Shown here: piece after piece, positions 6,632 to 49,509 of the stretch
Layout: each line of letters opens with the position of its first letter
How positions within the stretch are numbered: the first letter of the stretch is position 1
Assembly: GCA_019261985.1 (NCBI GenBank)
Contig: JAFAQY010000023.1
Span: 1-64,000 of the forward strand
Direction: 5' to 3'
DNA: 64,000 nt
Source: Bryobacterales bacterium
Lineage (GTDB): Bacteria > Acidobacteriota > Terriglobia > Bryobacterales > Bryobacteraceae
Made by a program: the position numbers and the translations under genes
The notes under the pieces: model-generated
What the model saw: only the letters and a program-made list of their open reading frames with translations
Told to the model about the DNA's origin: nothing
Databases searched by the model: none

Positions 6632-6634
6632 AAG

Positions 6635-6732
6635 TTGTCAGTCATCAGTCATCAGTTGTCAGTGATCAGTACTGACGACTGAGAACTGACAACTAAAAAC
6701 TGAGAACTGAAAACTGAGAACTGAAAACTAAA
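6635..6732. repeat. Heptanucleotide array, 14 units, in the rplX-rplE gap
   Basis: The whole 98 bp divides into 7-base units. Units 1-5 read TTGTCAG, TCATCAG, TCATCAG, TTGTCAG, TGATCAG. Units 6-14 are in the complementary sense: TACTGAC, GACTGAG, AACTGAC, AACTAAA, AACTGAG, AACTGAA, AACTGAG, AACTGAA, AACTAAA. The two halves can therefore pair, for example AGTTGTCAGT (6654-6663) with ACTGACAACT (6685-6694). The array ends one base before the rplE ATG, leaving no recognisable Shine-Dalgarno. Confidence 0.9.
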
Positions 6733-6733
6733 A

Positions 6734-9693: not shown

Positions 9694-10130
9694 ATCTCAG
9701 TCAATTGAAACCGCCCCCTGGGCAAAAGCATAAGAAGCAGCGCATCGGCCAAGGCATGGGCACAGGCCGCGGCAAATATTCCGGCCGCGGAGCCAAGGGC
9801 GCAAAGTCCATTTCAGGCTACTCGCGTATGCGCGGCTTTGAAGGCGGCCAGATGCCGCTGCACCGCCGCTTGCCGAAACGCGGATTTACCAATATCTTCA
9901 AGAAAGAGTATGCGATCTTGAACATTGGTAAGCTGGAAACGCTTGAAGGGGACAACTTCGAGCCGGCGAACCTTCTGGAACTGGGCGTCATCCGTAAACT
10001 CAAGGACGGCTTAAAGGTCCTCGGCACAGGCGAATTGAAGCGTAAGATTGTAGTAAAGGCTCACGTGTTCTCCGAGTCGGCCCGCAAAAAGATTGAGACA
10101 GCCGGCGGGACGGCTGAAGTCATTCAGTAG
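9690..10130 (+). CDS. rplO: 50S ribosomal protein L15
   Basis: A 146-residue L15 with the glycine-rich start [44 protein letters not shown] and the C-terminal [19 protein letters not shown]. It is a late 50S protein. The stop codon (10128-10130, TAG) is the first element of the six-unit palindrome array that separates it from secY. Confidence 0.97.
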
Positions 10131-10304
10131 GAGAAGCTTCAGCTTGTCCACTGAGGCTGGGACAAGGTTCAGCTTGTTCACTGAGGCTGGGACAAGCTTC
10201 AGCTTGTCCTACTGAGGCTGGGACAAGCTTCAGCTTGTTCACTGAAGCTGGGACAAGGTTCAGCTTGTTCACTGAGGCTGGGACAAGCTGAAGCTTGTCC
10301 TACT
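10128..10304. repeat. Six-unit tandem array of family A palindromes between rplO and secY
   Basis: Six units of 30-31 bp start at about 10130, 10160, 10190, 10221, 10251 and 10281. Each holds a palindrome of the type GGACAAGCTTCAGCTTGTCC followed by the linker ACTGAGGCTG. Units 2 and 5 share the variant GGACAAGGTT; units 2, 4 and 5 share TTGTTC. The sixth unit ends directly in the secY Shine-Dalgarno GAGAGGA. There are no unique spacers, so this is not a CRISPR array. Transcribed RNA could form up to six consecutive stems. Confidence 0.93.
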
Positions 10305-10314
10305 GAGAGGAATT

Positions 10315-11709: not shown

Positions 11710-11721
11710 ATGAGGAACCCG

Positions 11722-11811
11722 GGTGGAGCAGGCGTTAGCCTGCAACCTGGGCTTCAGCCCAGGCCAATGCGGGAGCTGACGCTCCCGTTGCAGGCTAAAG
11801 CCTGCTCCACC
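11722..11811. repeat. Family B compound palindrome, copy 3
   Basis: A 90-bp element between secY and adk. The left arm is GGTGGAGCAGGCGTTAGCC. Inner hairpins are CCTGGGCTTCAGCCCAGG and CGGGAGCTGACGCTCCCG. The right arm is GCAGGCTAAAGCCTGCTCCACC. It ends only eight bases before the adk ATG. Confidence 0.9.
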
Positions 11812-11819
11812 TCTGAATA

Positions 11820-12497: not shown

Positions 12498-13264
12498 TTG
12501 TGCGGAAGAATATGGCCGAGCTTGAAAAAATGCGCGCCGCCGGTCTGTTGGTTTGGAAGATTTTGGAAAATTTGAAGCGAATGGTCGCGGAAGGCGTTTC
12601 AACCTACGATTTGGAAGTGACGGCCGAGAAAATGATGCAGGATGCGGGCGCGCGGCCGGCGTTTAAGGGCTACAAATCGCCCGCGGCGGAAACGAAGTTT
12701 CCGTTTGTGCTGTGTACTTCGGTGAACGACGAAATCGTGCATGGGATGCCTTCGCACAAGCGCATCTTGAAGCCCGGCGATATCGTTTCGATCGATACGG
12801 GCGTGCAGTTGAGCGGGTATTACGGCGACTCCGCTGTTACTGTTGGAATTGGGGAGATTTCTCCCGAGGCGCAGCGCTTGATGGACGTAACCCGCGAGTC
12901 GCTGGAAATGGCGATTGAAAAGGCGCGGGCGGGTAACCGGCTTTTCGATATTTGCGGCACGGTGGAGCGGCACGTAACCGCCAACGGATTTTCGATCGTC
13001 CGCGAATTCGTGGGGCATGGGATCGGAACGCAGATGCATGAAGAGCCGCAGATTCCGAATTACGTGGACCGCCGCGGCGAAAATCCGCGGTTGAAGGAAG
13101 GCATGGTGCTCGCGATCGAGCCGATGGTCAACGCCGGTAAGCCGGGCGCGAGAGTTAAGCCGGACAAGTGGACGGCTGTCACCGAAGATGGAAGGTATTC
13201 GGCTCATTTCGAGCACACGGTCGCAATCACCGCCAACGGGCCGTGGGTATTGACGAGGCCTTAG
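12494..13264 (+). CDS. map: Methionine aminopeptidase, type I
   Basis: Removes the initiator Met from new proteins. The 256-residue protein is of typical type I length. Metal ligands are visible in the usual order: Asp in IDTGVQLSGYYGDSAVT (two ligands), His in EFVGHGIGTQMHEEP, Glu in LAIEPMVN, and Glu in FEHTVAIT. It overlaps adk, and its TAG stop (13262-13264) runs into a family B element exactly where infA would normally follow. Confidence 0.97.
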   Translation: MIVRKNMAELEKMRAAGLLVWKILENLKRMVAEGVSTYDLEVTAEKMMQDAGARPAFKGYKSPAAETKFPFVLCTSVNDEIVHGMPSHKRILKPGDIVSIDTGVQLSGYYGDSAVTVGIGEISPEAQRLMDVTRESLEMAIEKARAGNRLFDICGTVERHVTANGFSIVREFVGHGIGTQMHEEPQIPNYVDRRGENPRLKEGMVLAIEPMVNAGKPGARVKPDKWTAVTEDGRYSAHFEHTVAITANGPWVLTRP

Positions 13265-13351
13265 GTGGGGCGGGCTTCAGCCTGCGGCGGGCTTTAGCCC
13301 GCCACGGTGACGGCGGGACTGAAGTCCCGCGCAGGCTGAAGCCTGCCCCAC
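13264..13351. repeat. Family B compound palindrome, copy 4, in the usual infA position
   Basis: An 88-bp element that begins at the last base of the map stop codon. Outer arms are GGTGGGGCGGGCTTCAGCC and GCAGGCTGAAGCCTGCCCCAC; inner hairpins are GGCGGGCTTTAGCCCGCC and CGGGACTGAAGTCCCG. It fills most of the 108-bp map-rpmJ gap. Confidence 0.9.
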
Positions 13352-13372
13352 AATGAAGGAAGTTGAGGATTT

Positions 13373-14313: not shown

Positions 14314-14336
14314 TAGGACAAGCTTCAGCTTGTCCC
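14314..14336. repeat. Family A palindrome, copy after rpsK
   Basis: TAGGACAAGCTT plus CAGCTTGTCC, starting at the base after the rpsK stop codon. One outer pair is changed (CCC instead of CCTA). Confidence 0.85.
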
Positions 14337-14403
14337 GTGTGTGTAAGCAGGAAGAAGGCGCGATCCGCGCTGTAAACTGCACCTGACTGAAGAACAGGTC
14401 ACG

Positions 14404-14438
14404 GTCACTGGCGTCTGGCCCCTGACCGCTGGCCCCTG
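14404..14438. repeat. Heptanucleotide array, 5 units, upstream of rpsD
   Basis: Five contiguous 7-mers, each ending in CTG: GTCACTG, GCGTCTG, GCCCCTG, ACCGCTG, GCCCCTG. Two units are identical and spaced 14 bases apart. It is shorter and more G+C-rich than the rplE array but has the same period and a shared CTG core. It ends just before the rpsD Shine-Dalgarno GGGAGG (14442-14447). Confidence 0.7.
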
Positions 14439-14453
14439 ATTGGGAGGTTTGAT

Positions 14454-15086
14454 TTGGCTAGATACATTGGCCCCGTCTGCCGGTTGTGCCGGCGCGAGGG
14501 CATGAAATTATTCCTGAAAGGCGAGCGTTGCCATACCGAAAAGTGCGCCATCGAAAAGCGCAACTTTCCCCCGGGGCAGCACGGCAAGGATCGCAAGCCG
14601 AAGATTGTCGGCTACGGTCTCCAGCTCCGCGAAAAACAAAAGGCGCGCCGCTATTACCAACTGCTGGAAGGCCAGTTCCGGAATTTGTTCGAGAAGGCGA
14701 GCGCCACCAAGGGCATCACGGGCGAAACCATGCTGAACCTGCTGGAACGGCGCCTGGATAACGTGCTCTATCGCGCGGGCTTCGGCACTTCGCGGGCTCA
14801 GTGCCGGCAGCTTGTGCGTCACGGCCACGTGAATGTGAGCGGCCGGCGCGTCGACATTCCGTCGTATACCGTAAAAGCGGACGAAGTGGTTGAAATCCGT
14901 GAAGCCAGCAAGAAGAACCCGACCATTCTGCACGCCCGCGACGCTACGGCCCACGCTCCCAGTCCCAACTGGCTGGAAGTGGACCGCGAGAATCTGCGCG
15001 CCCGCGTCTTAGGCCAGCCCAAGCGCGACGATCTGGTGCAGATTCAGTTGAACGAACAGCTCATCGTCGAGTTGTACTCGAAGTAA
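14454..15086 (+). CDS. rpsD: 30S ribosomal protein S4, zinc-binding type
   Basis: A 210-residue S4 with TTG as start codon ([16 protein letters not shown]), supported by GGGAGG at 14442-14447. Cys9-x2-Cys12 and Cys26-x4-Cys31 form the N-terminal zinc site. The S4 RNA-binding domain lies at about residues 98-160 ([32 protein letters not shown]). The 140-base leader contains a palindrome and the heptad array. S4 is a primary assembly protein and, in other bacteria, a translational repressor of this operon. Confidence 0.97.
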
Positions 15087-21300: not shown

Positions 21301-22377
21301 ATGAAGTCGCCCTACATAAGCGAGCTTCAAGCCAACGAAACTATTCACGGCGTTTTTCTGGTTGCCCACAAGGACATTCGCCAGAAAAAGAGCGGGGACC
21401 CGTATCTTTCACTTACGCTGTCGGATCGCACCGGCGACCTCGACGCGAAGATGTTCGATAACGCGTCGGACTCCCTGGATACGTTCGATTGCGACGACTT
21501 CGTGCGGGTGAAGGGCCTGCTTCAGGTCTTCCACAACCGCCCGCAGCTTTCGATTCATAAAATCCAGCCCGTGCCGGACACCGAAGTCGATACCGCCGAC
21601 TTCTTTCCGGCGTCCAAACGCGACCGGGACGAAATGTTCCGAGAGCTTCAAACATGGATCGCGGGCGTGGCGAATCCGCATATCAAAGCACTGCTTGACG
21701 CGATGTTCGCGGACCAGTCGATTGCGATTCCTTATCGCTCCGCTCCGGCCGCTAAGAGCGTACATCATAACTGGATCGGCGGCCTGATCGAACACGTTCT
21801 GTCGATGTGCCACATCGCCCGGTTTACGGCGGCCCATTATCCCGGCATCGATTTCGATCTGCTGCTTGCCGGTGTGCTGCTACACGATATCGGCAAGGTA
21901 CGCGAGCTTTCCTTCTCGCGCAGCATCGCGTATACCAGCCAGGGCCAGCTACTTGGCCATATCATGATTGGCGTCGGGATGATCGAAGAGAAGCTGCGCG
22001 GAATCCCGGACTTTCCGGCTCCCATACGCGACCTGCTTCTGCACATGATCATCAGCCATCATGGCGAGCTGGAATACGGCTCTCCGAAGGTTCCGGTATT
22101 TCCAGAAGCGCTGCTGCTGCATCAAATCGACAACCTGGATTCGAAAATGGAGTGCATGCGCGCGCTGATCGAGAAAGACCGTTTAGTCGACGGCGAATGG
22201 ACCGTCTATTCGTCGGCACTGGATCGCTCGGCGCTGAAGAAATCCAAGTTTCTGGAACCGCCGCAGCCCGCCCACAAAGCGGAGGCATCCGTTGCAGCGG
22301 CGGTATCTCCAAAGCCGCAACCGCAACCCTCATCGCCATTCGCAGCGAAGCTGATAAACGCGTTGCGGCGCGAGTAG
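21301..22377 (+). CDS. OB-fold plus HD-domain protein, YhaM-like 3'-5' exoribonuclease
   Basis: A 358-residue cytoplasmic protein. Residues 1-95 form an OB-fold nucleic-acid-binding domain (DPYLSLTLSDRTGDLDAKMF, DFVRVKGLLQVF). Residues 150-285 form an HD domain with the metal ligands His in VHHNWIGGLIEHVL, HD in LLHDIGK, and HH in IISHHGELEYGSP. This is the YhaM architecture, a 3'-5' exonuclease acting on RNA and single-stranded DNA. The tail is Pro/Ala-rich. The TAG stop (22375-22377) is the first triplet of a perfect palindrome shared with lhgO. Confidence 0.88.
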   Translation: MKSPYISELQANETIHGVFLVAHKDIRQKKSGDPYLSLTLSDRTGDLDAKMFDNASDSLDTFDCDDFVRVKGLLQVFHNRPQLSIHKIQPVPDTEVDTADFFPASKRDRDEMFRELQTWIAGVANPHIKALLDAMFADQSIAIPYRSAPAAKSVHHNWIGGLIEHVLSMCHIARFTAAHYPGIDFDLLLAGVLLHDIGKVRELSFSRSIAYTSQGQLLGHIMIGVGMIEEKLRGIPDFPAPIRDLLLHMIISHHGELEYGSPKVPVFPEALLLHQIDNLDSKMECMRALIEKDRLVDGEWTVYSSALDRSALKKSKFLEPPQPAHKAEASVAAAVSPKPQPQPSSPFAAKLINALRRE

Positions 22378-22398
22378 GACAAGCTTAAGCTTGTCCTA
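22375..22398. repeat. Perfect 24-bp family A palindrome giving stop codons to two convergent genes
   Basis: TAGGACAAGCTT followed by its exact reverse complement, with no mismatch. The plus-strand gene ends on the first TAG (22375-22377). The minus-strand gene ends on TAA at 22387-22385 inside the palindrome. As RNA it folds the same way from either side. Confidence 0.95.
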
Positions 22399-49485: not shown

Positions 49486-49509
49486 TGGGACAAGCTTAAG
49501 CTTGTCCTA
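49486..49509. repeat. Family A palindrome between a hypothetical gene and pheS
   Basis: A 24-bp palindrome with one mismatch (TGGGACAAGCTT / AAGCTTGTCCTA). On the minus strand it encodes the last residues GQA and the TAA stop of the upstream gene, then ends six bases before the pheS ATG. Confidence 0.9.

Follow-up and report, generated by a model that had tools for sequence, protein, structure and literature searches.

Between rpsK and rpsD in the ribosomal protein operon of a Bryobacterales bacterium, five consecutive 7-mers ending in CTG are located just before the Shine-Dalgarno motif of rpsD. The original prediction, made for a window of 64,000 nucleotides (the whole stretch of DNA analysed here), regarded them as a divergent counterpart of a second heptad array upstream of rplE and suggested a repeated process at ribosomal gaps. 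This raises the question of what kind of element the rpsD array represents and whether it plays a specific role at rpsD. Our best explanation, to which we assign as a whole a probability of roughly 60%, is that the array belongs, as a GC-rich member with a single arm, to a class of intergenic heptad repeats found throughout the genome, and that these elements are hairpin-forming insertions which change by 7-bp units and are tolerated where the hairpin loops out.

The rpsD array and its counterpart upstream of rplE

Direct reading confirmed the five heptads beside the Shine-Dalgarno motif (Table 1), which is part of the sequence ATTGGGAGG following the array on its 3' side. The 140-bp gap contains a run of five CTG at an exact spacing of 7 bp, compared to a best run of two at any other spacing between 4 and 12. 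Among 20,000 dinucleotide shuffles of the gap, none showed a run of five at spacing 7 and one showed it at any spacing from 4 to 12. The units are only partly alike outside of CTG, and the array does not pass our self-match threshold (13), so the term "divergent" describes it well. By eye, no left arm was recognised in this gap. The RNA fold of the whole gap is modestly more stable than expected (z −1.88; 8 of 200 shuffles equally stable), and fold prediction indicates that the array can pair within itself.

The rplE array (6638-6733) is stronger, with a run of nine ACT (0 of 5,000 shuffles), and consists of two arms, first of TCAGT type and then of ACTGA type. The RNA fold of the rplX-rplE gap has a predicted energy of −40 kcal/mol (z −4.99; none of 200 shuffles as stable). 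Rfam hits at this gap were microRNA hairpin models and were discarded as sub-threshold. As predicted, both arrays share the period and the CTG core and belong to one class with CTG at spacing 7, in which the rplE array represents an AT-type (ACTGANA) and the rpsD array a GC-type (YCTGGCN). The prediction had missed the mirrored, hairpin-forming arms, which proved to be common among the arrays (17 pairs in 64 arrays sampled).

Table 1. Features of the rpsK-rpsD and rplX-rplE gaps (positions in the window).
Feature	Position	Strand	Remarks
rplX-rplE gap in full (102 bp) with mirrored heptad hairpin	6632..6733	+	
Left arm of rplX-rplE heptad hairpin	6638..6670	-	ACTGANN read on - strand
Right arm of rplX-rplE heptad hairpin	6671..6733	+	ACTGANN; ends directly before rplE ATG
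Palindrome GGACAAGCTTCAGCTTGTCC	14316..14335	+	Two bases after rpsK stop; separate repeat family; 141 genome places
Conserved RNA stem AAGCAGGAAGAAGGCGCGATCCGCGCTGTAAACTGCACCT	14345..14384	+	Candidate S4 leader resembling 16S helix 16
GC-type heptad array, 5 units ending CTG	14404..14438	+	Between S4-like leader and rpsD Shine-Dalgarno
Heptad 1, GTCACTG	14404-14410		Sequence read
Heptad 2, GCGTCTG	14411-14417		Sequence read
Heptad 3, GCCCCTG	14418-14424		Sequence read
Heptad 4, ACCGCTG	14425-14431		Sequence read
Heptad 5, GCCCCTG	14432-14438		Sequence read
rpsD Shine-Dalgarno GGGAGG	14442..14447	+	Intact, downstream of array; sequence, aligned in relatives
rpsD (ribosomal protein S4)	14454..15086	+	TTG start at 14454

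Heptad arrays across the genome

The source genome comprises 6.49 Mb on 138 contigs. A pattern of three AT-type units (ACTGANN) yielded 120 (overlapping) matches in the whole genome and none for the reversed control, and five CTG at spacing 7 yielded 88 matches vs. 9 for the control, including the rpsD array and GC-type arrays on other contigs (e.g., C20, C31, C47, C104 and C136). We analysed 2.6 Mb of the genome in stretches, including the window, and called the genes outside the ribosomal operon with a simple purpose-built codon model. Spacings were counted in 121 loci, consisting of contig starts chosen by rule and, for two contigs, of a second stretch as well; the count excluded 20 others, namely the window and 19 stretches picked for listed arrays, and omitting the starts of array-bearing contigs may slightly raise the array density without affecting the comparison between spacings. 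Because the arrays are sparse, we used run counts. In the intergenic regions of these loci, runs of at least five identical trinucleotides were counted 45 times at spacing 7, whereas no other spacing between 4 and 21 exceeded 7. Once the runs were merged into arrays, the 1,194 intergenic segments contained 18 with spacing 7, and every other spacing in this range gave four or fewer. Five shuffles of these segments, which covered spacings 5, 7, 8, 10 and 11, produced no run at spacing 7, and period 7 thus stands out against shuffled intergenic DNA. The base autocorrelation of intergenic DNA was not raised at lag 7 (z 1.0). Trinucleotide pairs at a single lag did not mark out this period either: CTG at lag 7 was in excess (136 vs. 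79.4), and so, to the same extent, were other trinucleotides and lags. The repeated process envisaged in the original prediction holds, while its restriction to ribosomal gaps is too narrow, since matches occur throughout the genome.

All sampled DNA together contained 64 arrays with at least four CTG, namely 38 AT-type, 12 G-type, 11 GC-type and 3 unclassified arrays, including one overlapping self-palindromic pair. The commonest units were CTGATAA in the AT-type (56 of 193 units) and CTGGCCC in the GC-type (24 of 56). A GC-type array on contig C136 (12375-12510 of locus L195) extends over 20 unit positions, 13 of them with CTG, and lies inside a called, possibly mis-called gene. The arrays were located between two called genes in 57 cases, inside called genes in five and at the ends of stretches in two. 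Their front, i.e., the side to which CTG reads, was within 25 bp of a coding sequence in 43 of the 57 (23 stops and 20 starts), compared to 10 of 57 for the back end. The array-bearing gaps comprised 29 tandem, 4 convergent and 8 divergent ones, and all sampled gaps 1,438, 351 and 347, respectively, so tandem genes are not enriched (29/41 vs. 1,438/2,136). At the level of sequence, the elements hug gene boundaries in both gene directions.

Among the array pairs within 200 bp of each other, 17 of 18 were mirrored outward, the remaining one being the self-palindromic overlap. Each of the 17 mirrored pairs folded more stably than its 60 shuffles (z −3.2 to −10.5). Their centres range from 2 to 133 bp and are dissimilar by eye, and the arms vary in length without correlation between the two arms (r −0.04). 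In 60 inverted alignments, obtained from 107 elements examined, pairs of hairpin mismatches occurred 105 times at distance 7, 66 times at 14 and 33 times at 21, whereas the remaining distances between 3 and 15 gave 17-35 such pairs, and distances 1 and 2 gave 40 and 36, respectively. Mismatches concentrate in one column of the heptad, with a share of 0.61 in the source genome (null value 0.38, exceeded in 46 of 47 arrays) and of 0.54 in relatives (null value 0.40, exceeded in 32 of 37), after dropping arrays that were too short or too uniform (14 of 61 and 30 of 67, respectively). The heptads consist of six kept columns and one free one. In the AT-type, the free column is the N of AACTGAN, where all four bases occur, and the other columns outside the detection pattern contain A in 97%, 80% and 96% of the cases. 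The free bases of paired arms showed no excess of complementarity (15 of 52 vs. 0.31 across loci), which supports neither perfect pairing nor recent copying from arm to arm.

In AT-type CTG arrays, the free base clearly alternated with a period of 14 bp (neighbours alike in 36 of 147 cases, next-nearest units in 56 of 113), but this was not confirmed more widely and was rejected: the most variable column was alike in 114 of 286 neighbours and 111 of 239 next-nearest units over all own arrays, and in relatives the neighbours (77 of 152), not the next-nearest units (40 of 115), showed the greater likeness. The purine/pyrimidine pattern RRYYRRN fitted one strand of 107 of 128 arrays (28 expected) and seven of the eight published heptad spellings that were tested. 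Because it weakened after clustering like heptads (35/51; 14/24; 5/11, p = 0.07), we offer it only as a lead.

The relation of the arrays to Shine-Dalgarno motifs was analysed in tandem gaps of up to 220 bp with an array front at most 25 nt from the start codon, scoring motifs up to 20 nt from the start. Only one of 14 starts abutted by an array had such a motif, compared to 243 of 483 control gaps (p = 0.0016). At the upstream stop, a motif was present in seven of the nine mirrored abutting arrays, a subset picked afterwards, vs. 171 of 483 controls (p = 0.013). The value for all 14 abutting arrays (8/14) was not significant (p = 0.15), and short gaps without arrays have the motif at the upstream stop as often (145/260). 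At the end of rplX, AAGAAGGGA is located 106 nt from the rplE ATG in the linear sequence, and this distance is shortened to about 16 nt in the centroid fold and about 9 nt in an alternative register, as counted by hand; the 16 nt still bridged in the centroid fold and the pairing of two Shine-Dalgarno bases in the minimum-energy fold count against looping out. The motif missing at the start, its presence at the upstream stop of mirrored arrays and the shortened distance in the rplE fold suggest that the elements are tolerated by looping out. In the folded state, the Shine-Dalgarno motif with which the upstream gene ends would stay sufficiently near the following start codon, and the elements could thereby persist in operon gaps.

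Ribosomal gaps of relatives and the leader of rpsD

For comparison, we used the best 80 rpsD loci among the matches listed, which belong to other genomes with titles nearly all from Acidobacteria. One locus (L270), in which the gap runs through an additional rpsD-like gene, did not enter the counts of operon gaps and inverted alignments but was kept among the 77 stem gaps described below. Of 385 ribosomal-operon gaps of at least 40 bp in these best 80 loci, 54 showed a strong self-match at lag 7 and 42 at lag 14, compared to at most 4 at any other lag between 4 and 15. Five loci (L267, L268, L276, L278 and L279) have many ribosomal gaps with heptad arms, which are often mirrored, and their heptads vary from gap to gap. 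Read by eye, the rpsK-rpsD heptads are ACTNGAA in L276, GCTAGNN in L278, CACTGRY in L279 and CCAANGA-like in L274, and the rpmD-rplO heptad GCTGANN is common to L276, L278 and L279. Orthologous gaps can thus carry different heptads in different species, and heptads differ even within the 20-kb locus L276.

The rplX-rplE gap measures 3 nt in four close relatives (L201, L202, L205 and L208), whereas L204 has 6 nt and L203 48 nt between the two genes. Because the site is this short or virtually empty in the relatives, compared to 102 bp here, the hairpin appears to be a derived insertion that separates the rplX stop from the rplE start. At rpsD, the five units of the window correspond to four in L201, the closest relative among the best 80 listed. 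The other six aligned relatives (L202-L206 and L208) have no array at this position, and L203 contains a short heptad-like piece adjoining the rpsK stop.

In a sample of 150 genomes of the family, including the own one, a four-unit AT pattern was found in seven and a four-unit GC pattern in eight, and the four other genomes of the same genus in this sample had neither. A four-unit G pattern was present in 21 of 297 genomes of the phylum, again counting the own one. The reversed AT control matched in 13 of the 150 family genomes, i.e., in more than the AT pattern itself (7), with up to 24 matches per genome. The reversed control AGTCANNAGTCANNAGTCANNAGTCA is frequent in genomes G020, G063, G045 and G049 (16, 16, 24 and 6 matches, respectively). 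Since AGTCANN repeats are also heptads, we read these matches as other heptads that the four genomes may contain. The heptad elements are patchily distributed across family and phylum and form a large, fast-changing class in this Acidobacteria genome and some of its relatives.

The rpsK-rpsD gap contains a second conserved feature in the form of a stem with the pattern GGA-N-GAAG ... GTAAA, which was found in 73 of 77 gaps of the window and the best 80 loci. It is missing in L220, L252, L270 and L212, the last of which shows a near match by eye. The four outer pairs are standard in 72-73 of the 73 stems with two to three pair types each, indicating covariation, the 5' base of the first outer pair being fixed by the stem-finding pattern. 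The next two positions are unpaired, and the four inner pairs are standard in 67-72 of 73. Rfam contained no match to the stem at E ≤ 10. A first 16S rRNA pattern found nothing in 21 related genomes, and a looser one detected a GA-N-GAAG...GTAAA segment once each in six of them, which we take by its letters to be helix 16 of 16S rRNA. This helix is part of the S4 site. The stem is thus a candidate for, and probably represents, a new S4 autoregulatory leader of Acidobacteria. In the accessible text of a survey of ribosomal leaders, S4 leaders are described for Bacteroidia, Clostridia, Flavobacteria and Fusobacteriales, with Acidobacteria unmentioned (PMC7247131).

Other repeats are present in the window. 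The palindrome GGACAAGCTNNAGCTTGTCC occurs at 141 places of the genome, including positions 661-680, 702-721, 2318-2337, 10190-10209, 10281-10300, 14316-14335, 22377-22396 and 49488-49507 of the window. In the rplO-secY gap (10130-10307), it is contained within about six tandem copies of a 30-bp unit. Two long intergenic hairpins at 13262-13363 and 11718-11815 matched microRNA and snaR models below the gathering scores only; they are not microRNAs and represent a further type of palindrome.

Origin of the elements and comparison with known heptad repeats

The best-developed members of the class are built from two mirrored arms of heptads that flank a short, unconserved centre; they begin where one gene ends and reach to the neighbouring gene, at either its start or its end. 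Paired as RNA or single-stranded DNA, the arms can form an imperfect hairpin with one free base per heptad (e.g., AACTGAN). We infer that the elements arose and changed in length by a slippage-type gain and loss of 7-bp units together with copying between the arms. Slippage would explain the unit steps and inter-arm copying the shared heptads; neither alone would explain the single free column. The units have not decayed uniformly, and six kept columns beside one free one are not predicted by plain slippage with neutral decay. As a tentative and rather unlikely alternative, a mechanism that is independent of sequence and advances in fixed steps of seven bases, six of them kept and one free, might build the mirrored arms outward to both sides of intergenic gaps. 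It might, for example, extend the two ends of a break, or a replication end that has folded back, with one short template and join them, and the kept part might be renewed with a new heptad per lineage at the same gap. If true, such a process would account for the mirrored arms, the unalike centres, the free base and the different heptads at orthologous gaps, and it would explain why heptads, among all lengths, recur across bacterial phyla.

Sites for an RNA- or DNA-binding protein or for the ribosome (e.g., via S1), which control the translation of the next gene, would agree with the scarcity of Shine-Dalgarno motifs at array-abutted starts, as in the Beggiatoa report (PMC4679880), and with most columns being kept while one varies. 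However, the fronts meet stops as often as starts (23 vs. 20), arrays are also present in convergent and divergent gaps, rpsD has a normal Shine-Dalgarno motif, and the kept sequence varies from locus to locus and, at a given gap, from species to species, which is not explained by one sequence-specific protein; we therefore regard this function as unlikely. The same applies to a dispersed mobile family of REP- or MITE-like elements copied by a transposase. Although the occurrence of 61 arrays of three related types in the 2.6-Mb sample, their patchy presence across genomes and the short rplX-rplE site of relatives would fit such a family, the elements have no sequence in common beyond the heptads, with unalike centres, arms of uncorrelated length and different heptads inside one 20-kb locus, and no target duplication was noticed at rplX-rplE, the site to which this observation refers.

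Two further explanations concern the rpsD array itself. Its position between the conserved S4-like stem and the Shine-Dalgarno motif and its ability to self-pair might suggest a functional part of the S4 autoregulatory leader, e.g., an expression platform, but the stem is present in 73 of 77 gaps from the window and the best 80 loci, whereas only L201 of seven aligned close relatives has the array at this place, which renders such a role quite improbable. Chance or low-complexity sequence would be consistent with the variable units and the failed self-match threshold, but seems hardly conceivable in view of the shuffling results, the many similar loci elsewhere in the genome and the array with one unit fewer in L201. 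Most likely, the rpsD array is a tolerated insertion between the S4-like leader and an intact Shine-Dalgarno motif without a specific regulatory role. We assign no rpsD-specific function because the gene keeps its own Shine-Dalgarno motif and the array has one arm and pairs within itself. If looping out indeed decides on tolerance, it would provide a simple rule for the survival of insertions of about 100 bp inside an essential operon. The same ribosomal gaps can be aligned across dozens of species and include short sites, a difference of one unit and complete changes of the heptad, so models of origin by slippage, hairpin copying, end extension or hairpin selection become directly comparable.

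Similar heptad repeats are known from other bacterial phyla. They have been reported piecemeal from cyanobacteria, Xanthomonas, Geobacter and Beggiatoaceae. Titles and abstract starts of the open-licence literature revealed no paper on heptad repeats in Acidobacteria, and the Solibacter genome paper reports many short repeats, heptads not being named in its accessible part (PMC3174227). The single conserved sequence with defined ends typical of REP or MITE elements differs from the unalike centres, variable arms and locus-specific heptads observed here. The heptamers of Calothrix are known as short tandemly repeated repetitive (STRR) sequences, which our arrays resemble by description as tandem heptads. 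Tandem heptanucleotides of Calothrix are also mentioned in PMC4692102, whose introduction stated in 2015 that a detailed literature on heptameric repeats was lacking.

In the trnL intron of Nostoc, both sides of the P6b stem consist of heptad repeats, with two alternative classes at one site and indels of 7 or 14 nt, which resembles our elements, but these are confined to one intron stem, whereas the heptads described here form a genome-wide intergenic class (PMC4476775). Geobacter metallireducens contains the heptad MTYCTGA and a fourfold GGGACCG; five tandem heptads with a CTGA core in sites drawn as fold-backs resemble our arrays, but belong to fixed families of 16 and 49 copies, interpreted as regulator sites and RNA elements (PMC2700814). 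In Xanthomonas (GGGAATC) and Nostoc (GGGGAYT), heptads of one G-rich type were studied for quadruplexes, and two Xanthomonas genomes have 70 and 75 paired arrays on opposite strands, the greatest fraction being located at most 50 bp from ORF ends, with differences in length and sequence between relatives (PMC4692102). Our arrays likewise form opposite-strand pairs near ORF ends (17 of 18 pairs; 43 of 57 fronts within 25 bp), and the pairs of that report, which are called convergent, may correspond to our outward layout (PMC4692102). The heptads of our arrays, however, differ from locus to locus, and the rpsD array has a single arm. The commonest AT- and G-type units (CTGATAA and CTGAAAG) lack a run of three G on either strand, and the GC-type unit CTGGCCC and two units of the rpsD array have one on the other strand, according to the unit table and by eye.

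The same heptad as in our AT-type arrays is found in the TAACTGA direct repeats of marine Beggiatoaceae, Cyanobacteria and Bacteroidetes (MacGregor 2015, PMC4679880). These repeats are intergenic, mostly directly 5' of starts without a ribosome-binding site and in some cases ahead of ribosomal protein genes; their indels between two Cyanothece strains are mostly 7-nt steps, and translation control of the next gene was proposed for Beggiatoaceae (PMC4679880). In the Beggiatoa genome, they mostly occur as single forward arrays leading to the start; only one of 170 sets is an inverted repeat, and related heptamers rarely form repeats, whereas we observed mirrored arms, both gene directions and many heptads (PMC4679880). 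A forward orientation towards starts is not characteristic of our arrays, with fronts at 20 starts and 23 stops, and the rpsD array is of the GC-type without that heptad. The lack of a ribosome-binding site at the adjoining start is shared by our arrays as a class (1 of 14 with the motif), but not by rpsD. The heptad itself is common to the AT-type arrays and the TAACTGA system, as ACTGATA is TAACTGA rotated and CTGATAA, another rotation, is the commonest AT-type unit of this genome.
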